Assembly: GCF_900155645.1 (NCBI RefSeq)
Contig: NZ_LT706985.1
Coordinates: 1,054,001 to 1,118,000 of the forward strand
DNA length: 64,000 nucleotides
Reading direction: 5' to 3'
Source of the DNA: Vaginimicrobium propionicum
GTDB taxonomy: Bacteria > Actinomycetota > Actinomycetes > Propionibacteriales > Propionibacteriaceae
A model generated the notes under the pieces. It ran no database searches. It was not told the DNA's origin and saw only the letters and a list, made by a program, of their open reading frames with translations. Positions 9,791 through 41,902 of the stretch are shown piece by piece; the first letter of the stretch is position 1, and each line of letters opens with the position of its first letter. Position numbers and translations under genes: made by a program.

Positions 9791-11685
<1,895 letters not shown>

Positions 11686-11758
11686 GATGGGCCCCTTTCT
11701 ATGTGAAATGTTTTCGTTTCTAGCTAATCAGGGCGTCGTCGCGGTGCCGCCCCAATTT

Positions 11759-11785
11759 TTAGCACCCTATTGGTTTGAGTGCTAA
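11759..11785 (-). promoter_or_regulatory. CIRCE operator (HrcA site) of groES-groEL
   Basis: TTAGCACCC, nine bases, GAGTGCTAA matches the CIRCE consensus (TTAGCACTC-N9-GAGTGCTAA) except for one base in one arm. HrcA binds CIRCE and represses groESL until heat shock. It lies just downstream of the predicted transcription start, about 75 bases before the groES start codon. Confidence 0.92.
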
Positions 11786-11789
11786 AACA

Positions 11790-11818
11790 ACATTAGCCAC
11801 GGTCTGGCACTCAATCAA
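11790..11818 (-). promoter_or_regulatory. groES-groEL promoter
   Basis: On the minus strand TTGATT (11813-11818) and TAATGT (11790-11795) are separated by exactly 17 bases. The -35 falls in the loop of the upstream hairpin and the -10 lies just before the first CIRCE site, so HrcA bound at either site would block polymerase. Confidence 0.65.
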
Positions 11819-11841
11819 CTCGAGTGCTAGACCGTGGCTAA
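11793..11841 (-). terminator. Long hairpin terminating the upstream gene and carrying a second CIRCE-like core
   Basis: Two 20-base arms (11793-11812 and 11822-11841) pair with one G-U-type difference across a 9-base loop. The hairpin is 22 bases past the stop codon of the proline-rich membrane protein gene and is followed on the minus strand by a T-rich stretch (TAATGTTGTTTTAG). The inner part, CTGGCACTC-N9-GAGTGCTAG (11804-11830), is a near-CIRCE sequence. The groES promoter -35 lies inside its spacer. Confidence 0.75.
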
Positions 11842-11863
11842 TTAATTGGTTTTCTGCTAACCG

Positions 11864-13414
11864 CTATTCGTCGAAAGTGACTTCAACTTCGTTATCGCCT
11901 ACTAACTTAGCTGTCCCTTGCAGAGAAATATAGGGGAACACTTCCTCCGGGTCAGTAGATGACGAATCTGTCTTGTAGGACAGCTCAGTATCCGCCGTAT
12001 AGTCGAAAGTCACCGTATCTGCACTGCTTGAATAAACCGAAACATAGGAAGTATCAGTGCGCTTCCACTTGATATCGATGGCTTTCGTTTCATCACCGAA
12101 ATAGCTATAAAAAAATGGACAACCAGACGGCTCAAAACTGCCTTTAGCTAGGCAGTCATCAATAATAGAATCAGCCTTCTTCTGGACAGCTGAAACACCT
12201 TGATCCGATACTTCTAAATAAGTCGAAATGTATGCAAAAGAGCCCCAACTTAAGTCTTCGGCGTTGCTATCTGAATCATAGAAGAGATTATCTACACCGT
12301 TCACCGCGTAGGTGCCAGGCAAGGCCAGGTAATCACCAGGCAAAACATCAGTGCCATTTACACTAACTGTTTCATCATCATCGTCCCCTGAAACCGATAG
12401 CGTCCCTAACCCACCATCGACGATTTCCCATTTGGAGCCAAACGTACCGCCAGTATTGGTTAACTCGATTATCGCGAAATCTTCGTAACCCTTGTAAGTG
12501 AAATCAACGACTGCGGTGTGCCCCTTTCCCATGGTAGAGCCCGTAATGTCGGTAATTTTGATGTCGCCATCTTTAAGGGCACCTTTCATGGCATCTACCG
12601 GAAGCACCTGCTCATCATCAAGGTCTAGAAACCCTAATGCTTTATCAACATTGCCGCTAGCTACTGCTTGGATATAATCTCTCGCCACATCTTCTGGCTT
12701 TTTGTTAATGACCTTGAATGCCAATGCCCCAACAAGTGCCAGGACGATAAGCCCGGCGATAACAGCCCCGACTATCACCAACGTTTTACGGTTGGCCTTA
12801 ACTGGCACTTGTCCTGCCGGCCCGCCAGGCTGGAACGGAACTGGGCCACTGCCTTGTGGCTGACCAGGCATGAACGCCTGACCGGGGTTCGGACGTTGTC
12901 CTGGCGCGGCCTGACCAGGAATAAACGGTTGACCAGCATTAGGCGGCTGACCCGGATTGAAAGGTTGTCCAGGCATCGGCTGCTGGCCAGGATTAAACGG
13001 GCGACCAGGCATCGGCTGATTTGGATTGCCCATTCCAGGAGTCCAGTAAGGCGGGTTAGGTTGTGGCGCACCCGGCGGCACGGGCTGACCCGGTTGCCCG
13101 GGCTGGGCTACGAAAGGTGGCTGATTGCCAGGCACCGGCTGACCCGGTTGCCCCATAAACGGTGGTTGACCGGCGGATGGTGGTTGATTAGGCGGAATAG
13201 GTTGACCCTGCTGACCGACAAAAGGCGGCTGATTTGGTGGAAAGGGATGCTCCGGCTGAGCAGCAAAAGATGGCTGACCGGAGGGAACCGGCTGCCTTGA
13301 CTGTTCTGCGGGCAGTTGCTCACCAGAAAGCGGAAACCCTTCTGGATTAGGTTGGTCTGGGTTGCCGTTATTGAGTGGTTGGGGCTGTTTTGGATCCTGC
13401 TCGCTCATAGTCAT
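11864..13414 (-). CDS. Proline-rich repeat protein with one membrane helix and an extracellular domain
   Basis: This 516-residue protein is unrecognised as a family. Residues 1-205 are a Pro/Gln/Gly/Asn-rich cytoplasmic region with many GQP, NQPPF and PGQPF repeats. A single membrane helix follows at about 211-233 (TLVIVGAVIAGLIVLALVGAL), then an outside domain. That domain begins with KKPEDVARDYIQAVASGNVDKALGFL, similar in style to actinobacterial DUF4878-like lipoprotein folds, and it carries two cysteines in its C-terminal third (DDCLAKGSFEPSGC). It lies between rplQ and groES, separated from both by terminators. The second ATG (13408) is an alternative start. Confidence 0.75.
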   Translation of the reverse strand: MTMSEQDPKQPQPLNNGNPDQPNPEGFPLSGEQLPAEQSRQPVPSGQPSFAAQPEHPFPPNQPPFVGQQGQPIPPNQPPSAGQPPFMGQPGQPVPGNQPPFVAQPGQPGQPVPPGAPQPNPPYWTPGMGNPNQPMPGRPFNPGQQPMPGQPFNPGQPPNAGQPFIPGQAAPGQRPNPGQAFMPGQPQGSGPVPFQPGGPAGQVPVKANRKTLVIVGAVIAGLIVLALVGALAFKVINKKPEDVARDYIQAVASGNVDKALGFLDLDDEQVLPVDAMKGALKDGDIKITDITGSTMGKGHTAVVDFTYKGYEDFAIIELTNTGGTFGSKWEIVDGGLGTLSVSGDDDDETVSVNGTDVLPGDYLALPGTYAVNGVDNLFYDSDSNAEDLSWGSFAYISTYLEVSDQGVSAVQKKADSIIDDCLAKGSFEPSGCPFFYSYFGDETKAIDIKWKRTDTSYVSVYSSSADTVTFDYTADTELSYKTDSSSTDPEEVFPYISLQGTAKLVGDNEVEVTFDE

Positions 13415-24558: not shown

Positions 24559-26205
24559 CTAGGCTTCTTTGGTGATCTTGTAGTAGACCGGCATGGAGTG
24601 CCAATCGAAGGCTACATTGTCAACCGCCTCAGACCAGCCACCATTGACATTGGCATACCACAGCGGAATAGCCGGCAGATCCTTGAACAGGATCTCCTGA
24701 GCCTGGTTCAGAATCTTGTGGGCTTCGTCCTGATCGGCGGTACCAGCAGCCTTAGACATCAAAGCATCAAAGTCAGGCGAAGAGTAATCGGCATCGTTAG
24801 AACCAGCGCCGGTCATGTAGATCGGGGCTAGGAAGTTGTAGATGCTCGGGTAGTCGGCCTGCCAGCCAGTACGGAAGGCGCCCTCGATGGTGCGGTTCGT
24901 AACGTCCTCACGCAAGGACTTGAAGTCCGCGTACGGCTTGCCTTCAGCTTCGATACCAAGAGTGTTCTTGATCGAGTTAGCGGTGGCGTCAACCCAGGTC
25001 TGGTGACCGCCATCAGAATTGTAAGCAATGGTGAATTTGCCCTCGAACTTCGAGATCTCGTCAGCCTTGGCCCACAGCTCCTTAGCCTTCTCAGGATCGT
25101 AAGTCAGCACATCGTTACCCTTGATCTTTGCGTCATAGCCAGGCAGAGCAGGTGAGCTGAACTCCTTAGCTGGGGTGCGGGTGCCACTGAAAGCAACCTT
25201 GGTGATTTCTTCGCGGTTAATGGCGTGTGACAACGCCTGACGACGCAGCTGGCCTTCTTCACCAGAGAAATGCTTCAGACCCATTGGAATGGTGAAGCTC
25301 TGGAAAACAGTGGTCAACTGGTTGACCGAACGGCCGTTCAGTTCATCCTCATAGGTCTCGAAAGCGGACTCAGGAACCTGGTCAATGACGTCCAAGTTGC
25401 CAGCCTGCAAGTCAGTATAAGCAGAATCTTGGTTGGTGTAGAAGATGAAGTTGATGCCGCCGTTCATCGCCTTACGGTCACCGTCATAGTTGGGGTTAGG
25501 CACCAACTGAAGCTGAACATTGTGCTCCCAAGCCGACTCGCTCTGATCCTTGAACATGTACGGGCCGTTGGCAACCGGATTGTTGCCAACCGTTGCTGCA
25601 CCATTTTCCGGATCGTCGGCGATGGTCTTTAGCGAAGCGTCAGCAATCGGGTAGAAGGCGCTGTAGCCCAGGCGAGCCGGGAAGTCCGACTCAGCTTGCT
25701 TCAGTTTGATAGTGAAAGTGTGGTCGTCCACAACTTCCAAGCCAGTCAAATCACCGGTGCCATCTACGGAGGCGCCCTCAATCGGCTCAAAGAAGTTTGA
25801 GCTTAGCATTCCGTTTTTAGCGCCAAGCTTCCAAGCCTCGACGAAGTTATTGGCTTTCACCTCAGTGTCGTCCGCGAACTTCTTGCCTTCTTTCAACTTC
25901 ACCGTCCAGGTGATGTTGTCTTCGGATTCCACCGATTCGGCGAGCTCAAGCTTCGCTTCGCCATTAACGTCGTAATAGTAGAGCCCAGCAAAAAGCAGGT
26001 CAGCGATACGTCCGCCGCCGGTCTCGTTAATGTCTGCCGGAATGAACGGGCGCTGCGGCTCAGTGCCGTTAGCTAGCACGATGCCAGTAGTCGCCTCGCC
26101 GGACTTGGTATTGGATTTGTTATCGCCCGTAGCGGCACCACTGCAAGCAGAAAGCGCTAGAGCGAGAACGGCAGTAGCTGCCAGTAAAGACTTCTTCAGT
26201 CCCAT
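24559..26205 (-). CDS. Peptide-binding lipoprotein of ABC transporter (SBP family 5)
   Basis: This 548-residue extracellular solute-binding lipoprotein has a signal peptide with lipobox LSAC (Cys 21). It is followed by the family 5 fold (EPQRPFIPADINETGGGRIADLLFAGLY cut short here as EPQRPFIPADIN and ADLLFAGLY), TWTVKLKEGKKFADDTEVKA, and RRQALSHAINREEI. It captures oligopeptides for the DppBC/DF transporter encoded downstream. The ATG at 26205 is chosen because GAGGAGAG precedes it and it places the lipobox correctly; a longer upstream frame does not fit a signal peptide. Confidence 0.93.
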   Translation of the reverse strand: MGLKKSLLAATAVLALALSACSGAATGDNKSNTKSGEATTGIVLANGTEPQRPFIPADINETGGGRIADLLFAGLYYYDVNGEAKLELAESVESEDNITWTVKLKEGKKFADDTEVKANNFVEAWKLGAKNGMLSSNFFEPIEGASVDGTGDLTGLEVVDDHTFTIKLKQAESDFPARLGYSAFYPIADASLKTIADDPENGAATVGNNPVANGPYMFKDQSESAWEHNVQLQLVPNPNYDGDRKAMNGGINFIFYTNQDSAYTDLQAGNLDVIDQVPESAFETYEDELNGRSVNQLTTVFQSFTIPMGLKHFSGEEGQLRRQALSHAINREEITKVAFSGTRTPAKEFSSPALPGYDAKIKGNDVLTYDPEKAKELWAKADEISKFEGKFTIAYNSDGGHQTWVDATANSIKNTLGIEAEGKPYADFKSLREDVTNRTIEGAFRTGWQADYPSIYNFLAPIYMTGAGSNDADYSSPDFDALMSKAAGTADQDEAHKILNQAQEILFKDLPAIPLWYANVNGGWSEAVDNVAFDWHSMPVYYKITKEA

Positions 26206-41867: not shown

Positions 41868-41902
41868 AATTGCCTCGCACCCCATTCGGGTGCGAGGCAA
41901 TT
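41868..41902 (-). terminator. Terminator after tuf
   Basis: A perfect 15-base-pair stem (AATTGCCTCGCACCC / GGGTGCGAGGCAATT) with a 5-base loop, 16 bases past the tuf stop, followed on the minus strand by CTTGTTTTCT. Confidence 0.9.

Follow-up and report, generated by a model that had tools for sequence, protein, structure and literature searches.

A candidate groES promoter between two predicted CIRCE operators, a terminator-like palindrome, and a conserved, covarying leader hairpin in Vaginimicrobium propionicum

CIRCE is an inverted repeat with the consensus TTAGCACTC-N9-GAGTGCTAA, and in the HrcA family, stress inactivates HrcA and frees the promoter. Promoters with two CIRCEs have reportedly been found in Lactobacillus plantarum, together with HrcA and groES. 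The accessible part of one study on Mycobacterium tuberculosis describes an HrcA-repressed ruc promoter in which the HrcA site overlaps a SigH site (PMC7448276). For groES of the same species, the available text of PMC3207917 reports both CIRCE-dependent and CIRCE-independent starts, places the gene at the head of a table of abundant long 5′ untranslated regions, and states that the leader includes CIRCE, with post-transcriptional control via CIRCE being proposed. In Streptomyces coelicolor, heat raises both the transcription and the translation of GroES, GroEL1, and GroEL2, and the sections of that report at hand name no RNA element for the translational heat induction (PMC6009599). A candidate structured RNA linked to groES, the Pseudomon-groES RNA motif (RF01721), is tabulated for Pseudomonas only in the accessible part of PMC2864571.

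We analyzed a 64,000-nucleotide stretch of V. propionicum DNA (the window; contig NZ_LT706985.1, positions 1,054,001 to 1,118,000), which is surrounded by a 2.01-Mb genome in a single contig. The most similar GroES among named records came from Propionibacteriaceae. The minus-strand gene order is rpoA, rplQ, the gene for a 516-aa proline-rich protein, groES, and groEL, the last three being located as follows.

11864-13414, minus strand: open reading frame (ORF) of the proline-rich protein gene upstream of groES, 516 aa, family unassigned
11389-11685, minus strand: groES, 98 aa, GTG start at 11685 (PF00166)
9791-11377, minus strand: groEL, 528 aa (PF00118)

The proline-rich protein (11864-13414) matched no family in Pfam or NCBIfam. 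Other genes occupy the place before groES in several relatives, in contrast to the proline-rich gene after rplQ here, and the groES neighborhood therefore seems to have been rearranged. An hrcA gene is present in the genome (PF01628; E = 3.6e-48).

The interval from the stop codon of the proline-rich gene (11864) to the first base of groES (11685) contains two CIRCE-like sites, in the positions given by an earlier, sequence-only reading of this DNA. The sites and the elements surrounding them are these.

11804-11830, minus strand: predicted upstream CIRCE operator, 3 mismatches, found by consensus scan and in the same place in relatives
11759-11785, minus strand: predicted downstream CIRCE operator, 1 mismatch, found by consensus scan and covering the expected transcription start
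11813-11818, minus strand: candidate -35 element TTGATT, read from the sequence, in the palindrome loop and at the center of the upstream CIRCE
11790-11795, minus strand: candidate -10 element TAATGT, read from the sequence, its first four bases being the end of the palindrome 3′ arm
11792-11842, minus strand: extended palindrome (21-nt arms around a loop of 9 nt) that is probably the intrinsic terminator of the proline-rich gene (from its fold, T-rich tail, and position)
11784-11791, minus strand: T-rich tail GTTGTTTT past the stem, read from the sequence

No CIRCE-like site appeared in 100 shuffles of the window. The inner arms of the upstream CIRCE pair at all but one position. TTGATT and TAATGT are separated by a 17-nt spacer, and the downstream CIRCE starts 4 nt past TAATGT. 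Together, the two hexamers match the promoter consensus at 7 of 12 positions; a consensus promoter scan of 11600-11950, which requires 9 of 12 hexamer matches with at least 4 in each hexamer, reported none. We infer that groES transcription starts at about 11783, so that the mRNA would open with the downstream CIRCE. By analogy with the CIRCE-independent starts in M. tuberculosis, the main groES start may be elsewhere.

The upstream CIRCE is the core of a longer palindrome, whose arms (11792-11812 and 11822-11842) are 21 nt long, 95% complementary, and 9 nt apart. The RNA fold of this segment has an energy of -39.6 kcal/mol, compared with a mean of -12.8 for shuffled sequences (z = -9.7), which bears out the hairpin of about 20 bp that had been read after the proline-rich gene, and the -35 element lies within it, as had also been proposed. 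The proline-rich gene stops 21 nt ahead of the hairpin, a distance too short for another strong hairpin. Its tail, GTTGTTTT, has 6 T in 8 bases, broken by two G, resembles the tails of other post-gene hairpins in the window, and is closely similar to CTTGTTTT of the hairpin at 41902. A search of the window's minus strand for stems of at least 15 pairs, followed by 8 bases with no fewer than 4 T, gave nine hairpins (at 11842, 24494, 26535, 53078, 9757, 61833, 41902, 47049, and 15282), and eight of them begin 5 to 64 nt past the stop of a same-strand ORF of at least 150 aa. The hairpin at 11842 is the longest among minus-strand window hairpins with a T-rich tail. The second longest (24494-24447, minus strand) has 21 pairs and lies 64 nt after an ORF ending at 24559; the one at 61833-61800 (minus strand) has 15 pairs followed by TTTTAGGC, with the nearest same-strand stop of an ORF of at least 150 aa 441 nt away. 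Because both the position after the stop codon and the T-rich tail match the terminator style of the window, the palindrome hairpin likely ends the transcript of the proline-rich gene. A consensus terminator scan of 11600-11950 reported none, with loops limited to 3 to 8 nt and the hairpin loop measuring 9 nt.

We consider it probable that the groES promoter lies between two HrcA operators and that the extended upstream CIRCE serves as terminator, operator, and core promoter, with a separate leader hairpin following. In the RNA of the upstream gene, about 20 pairs would form a hairpin stem followed by a U-rich tail, upon which the transcript would end; the 51-bp palindrome would thus have an RNA role for the upstream transcript and a DNA role for groES. 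The promoter would fit the palindrome, with the -35 element in the loop, the 3′ arm as the spacer, and the -10 element straddling the arm end. HrcA bound to either operator would block RNA polymerase, as the upstream CIRCE holds the -35 element and the downstream one covers the start, and heat stress would inactivate HrcA and free the groES promoter. At the head of the groES transcript would stand the hairpin of the second CIRCE, and after it the separate, class-wide leader hairpin.

For comparison, groES upstream regions were collected from 80 named contigs and from 136 of the 138 family genomes in which GroES was matched. This gave 216 loci, or 214 once identical ones were removed, and the 214 retain near-duplicates between the two source sets (e.g., L014 and L166). 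A subset of 150 loci (the window and 149 others) comprises distinct upstream sites. Two CIRCE-like sites with at most 5 mismatches were present in 166 of the 214 regions and one in the other 48; by source, two sites occurred in 132 of the 134 loci from family genomes, in 34 of the 80 from named contigs, and in 54 of 89 loci of a class-wide sample. The start-to-start spacing was 45 to 47 in 148 of the 166 two-site loci, and TTG lay inside the 9-nt center of the upstream CIRCE in 152 of 166. The TTG..TANNNT promoter spacing fit 135 of the 150 loci. Two CIRCEs around a predicted promoter, with the -35 element centered in the upstream one, are a conserved layout found across the class and not a peculiarity of the window. 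Same-strand frames ending near CIRCE (121 of 150 loci) were set aside as chance long frames in G+C-rich DNA.

The conservation data also bear on the alternative that the hairpin is a terminator in which the upstream CIRCE is no longer bound, leaving the downstream CIRCE alone to regulate groES, which we regard as unlikely. The mismatch counts in the window (3 upstream versus 1 downstream) would be in line with such a loss, and the sequence-only reading had likewise called the upstream site a near-CIRCE and the second one, just past the -10 element, the better of the two. That ranking holds in the window but is reversed across relatives: over the 150 loci, mean mismatches were 1.82 for the upstream CIRCE and 2.81 for the downstream one, making the upstream site the better conserved. 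Relatives often have three mismatches in their upstream site, and pairing of the inner arms at all positions except one further argues against an abandoned operator.

What sets this genome apart is the length of the arms. At the 12 positions outside the upstream CIRCE, 12 of 12 were paired in the window, compared with 0 to 8 in the 149 other loci (mode of 4), and the local fold of the window was the strongest of the 150 loci (median, -24.0; standard deviation, 4.4). After those of the window, the longest arms (15 nt, one mismatch) belong to a single locus represented twice, as L014 and L166. The comparison of related genomes that the sequence-only reading had suggested thus upholds the double operator and confines the arm extension to the window. 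Similarly, its idea of a single element acting as terminator, operator, and promoter agrees with the operators, the -35 element, and the terminator-style hairpin, but the double operator is common, and the lengthened arms alone are unusual. This outward growth of the two arms by 12 nt appears to be specific to this genome, whose genus is represented by one species in the comparison.

Genome-wide, five CIRCE sites with at most 3 mismatches were found: two at groES, one upstream of hrcA, and two upstream of a second groEL. The three outside the groES locus are without arm extension. The genome contains the outer arm exactly twice, in the two arms of the palindrome itself; no further place matches with 1 mismatch and 11 places match with 2, compared with 16 for a reversed control pattern. 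Because the other CIRCEs of the genome are unextended and the outer arm is unrepeated, the extension seems to be neither an HrcA requirement nor a dispersed repeat, the latter being ruled out by the lack of further copies of the outer arm within 1 mismatch. These observations weigh on a second alternative, in which the palindrome is not a terminator but a larger protein-binding site, offering stronger HrcA contact or binding a second dimeric regulator. The perfect symmetry of the outer arms would suit a dimer, and the consensus scan reports no terminator. However, a site of this kind would be expected neither from the unextended CIRCEs elsewhere in the genome and in 149 relatives, nor from an outer arm unrepeated within 1 mismatch, nor from the terminator-like position and T-rich tail, and we find it quite unlikely.

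More improbable is a coupling of the two genes by the hairpin, through an HrcA roadblock or partial read-through into groES, yielding HrcA-independent basal expression. CIRCE-independent groES transcripts, as described for M. tuberculosis in the available text of PMC3207917, would accord with such coupling, but a 20-pair hairpin should terminate well. That the extended palindrome is a chance product or an assembly artifact is hardly credible: although it is seen in one genome only, that genome is a single contig, and 12 of 12 outer pairs are formed where the other 149 loci center on 2 to 4. If the nesting of terminator, operator, and promoter that we prefer is real, one 51-bp palindrome would end one transcript and both repress and start the one after it, which would make it a compact example of an operator that grew into a terminator.

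Between the downstream CIRCE and groES, just outside the region covered by the sequence-only reading (11759-11841), the leader holds a second structure.

11731-11753, minus strand: groES leader hairpin with the conserved loop GGCACCGCGACGAC and a covarying stem (model match, 11725-11758)

Alone, the window hairpin (11753-11731) folds at -8.2 kcal/mol, and it forms ten stem pairs in the whole-leader fold. Alignment of the leaders yielded the block GGCACCGCGACGAC, the core of which, CCGCGACG, starts a median of 16 nt past the last CIRCE. The stem statistics come from 184 of the 214 loci, with 156 distinct segments, that were chosen solely for their loop, and conservation of the loop is therefore read from the core counts. 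Flanking pairs 2 to 6 were formed in 74 to 87% of cases, compared with 41 to 60% expected from column composition. The covariation test used 88 representatives with less than 86% identity, 500 shuffles, and slid controls. In these representatives, 80.3% of the cells in the leader stem were paired (57.1% in shuffles), 204 cells were changed on both sides (86.6 in shuffles), and the covariation score was 0.579 (0.211 in shuffles and 0.10 to 0.23 in slid controls); none of the 500 shuffles reached any of these values. A cruder count of stem pairs with a double change gave 8 of 9, which was equaled by 495 of 500 shuffles. RNAalifold without a given structure predicted the identical stem. The leader stem varies freely but stays complementary, and compensatory base changes are present.

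Of the 214 loci, 189 have the pattern CCGCGACGNC downstream of their last CIRCE. Among 214 upstream and 214 coding control segments of equal length from the same loci, it was found in 1 and 0, respectively, on the same strand and in 2 and 0 on the other strand. The class-wide sample comprised 98 genomes, 96 with a GroES match, of which 89 loci were examined (29 plus 60, the window apart), leaving out 3 loci with good and 3 with only weak GroES matches. The leader core was present in 70 of the 89; one locus (L287) had one CIRCE and no core. A covariance model built from the 88 segments matched 53 of the 89 class loci at an E value of ≤0.1, and these 53, which are partly structure selected, covary too (0.537 versus 0.189). 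Among the 20 best GroES matches from other classes, no locus had the core, and the model found nothing better than an E value of 0.2.

Within the V. propionicum genome, the model matched once at an E value of ≤10, at groES, among the 150 of 828 candidates scored. The region of the second groEL gave no match at an E value of ≤1; this gene is preceded by two CIRCEs 35 nt apart (L002, 1466-1527; genome positions 1248999-1249060) and is without an adjoining groES within the 3 kb examined. Across 36 family genomes, the model had 35 matches at an E value of ≤0.1, with 27 at groES, including all 22 with an E value of <0.02; the other 8, away from groES, had E values of 0.021 to 0.075, with about 3.6 expected by chance. 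Searching 119 genomes of the phylum, with no more than 58 candidates scored in each and hence an undercount, returned at least four matches at an E value of ≤0.01, one being the window and three not at groES. We took these three as chance matches (long open frames, without CIRCE), although one scored 40.4 bits. The loop pattern alone is unspecific, having several matches in most family genomes, as does its reversed control. The leader hairpin is thus largely, though not provably only, a groES feature.

Of the 15 genomes no larger than 1.7 Mb, 14 lacked the core, compared with 23 of 208 larger ones (P = 1.4e-11 by Fisher's test), and 13 of the 14 small genomes without it come from two families and one genus. 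Small genomes (L217, L218, L220, and L208; L265, L270-L274, L279, L286, L287, and L320) keep the groES CIRCE, and the core is mostly absent. With few clades and an untrustworthy P value, we make no claim of hairpin loss in small genomes; the absence of the core is possibly a matter of kinship.

Rfam 15 gave no match at gathering score in 14 actinobacterial loci. Near the window locus there were four subthreshold matches, none centered on the leader hairpin, and snR3, mir-8286, sR2, and T-box matches near hairpins were rejected as all being under the gathering score. We recognized no description of the leader hairpin in a literature search that covered, besides Rfam, largely the main text of freely available papers. 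The hairpin is probably an undescribed element, and it is a more novel result than the terminator nesting. As for an RNA thermometer of the ROSE or fourU type, the predicted fold of the window leader leaves the hairpin unpaired with the ribosome-binding site. The idea that the loop pairs elsewhere in the leader, or with the start codon, was dropped (longest complementarity of 5.85 versus 5.48 in shuffles). Because the loop pairs with the leader no better than chance, a protein or a separate RNA is the likelier partner.

We lean toward the view that the Actinomycetia groES leader contains an undescribed structured RNA, a hairpin with the conserved loop GGCAC(C)CGCGACGAC on a variable complementary stem, located between CIRCE and the ribosome-binding site and largely confined to groES. 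Such an RNA would bind a class-specific protein or RNA and control groES-groEL post-transcriptionally on top of HrcA; the hairpin probably acts on the translation or stability of the groES mRNA. The groES-groEL operon is among the best-studied stress operons, and the conserved leader hairpin offers a direct, mutable candidate for a translational effect.

Relative to known systems, the leader hairpin shares with RF01721 its link to groES, but the latter, as tabulated in the accessible part of its source, is a different motif found in Pseudomonas only. The M. tuberculosis groES leader, unlike that of the window, is described in the available text of PMC3207917 with no mention of a second, conserved-loop hairpin. 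At the ruc promoter, the HrcA site overlaps a promoter element as in the window; unlike in the window, the accessible description has no terminator and one operator. The window resembles the general CIRCE/HrcA system in its consensus repeat before groES, its genomic hrcA, and the overlap with the predicted promoter and start, and differs from it in that the upstream arms are extended to a 21-nt palindrome with terminator features. With intrinsic (Rho-independent) terminators it shares the long stem and the position just after a stop codon, and its tail is T-rich though interrupted by two G, while its stem and loop would additionally serve as operator and -35 element.
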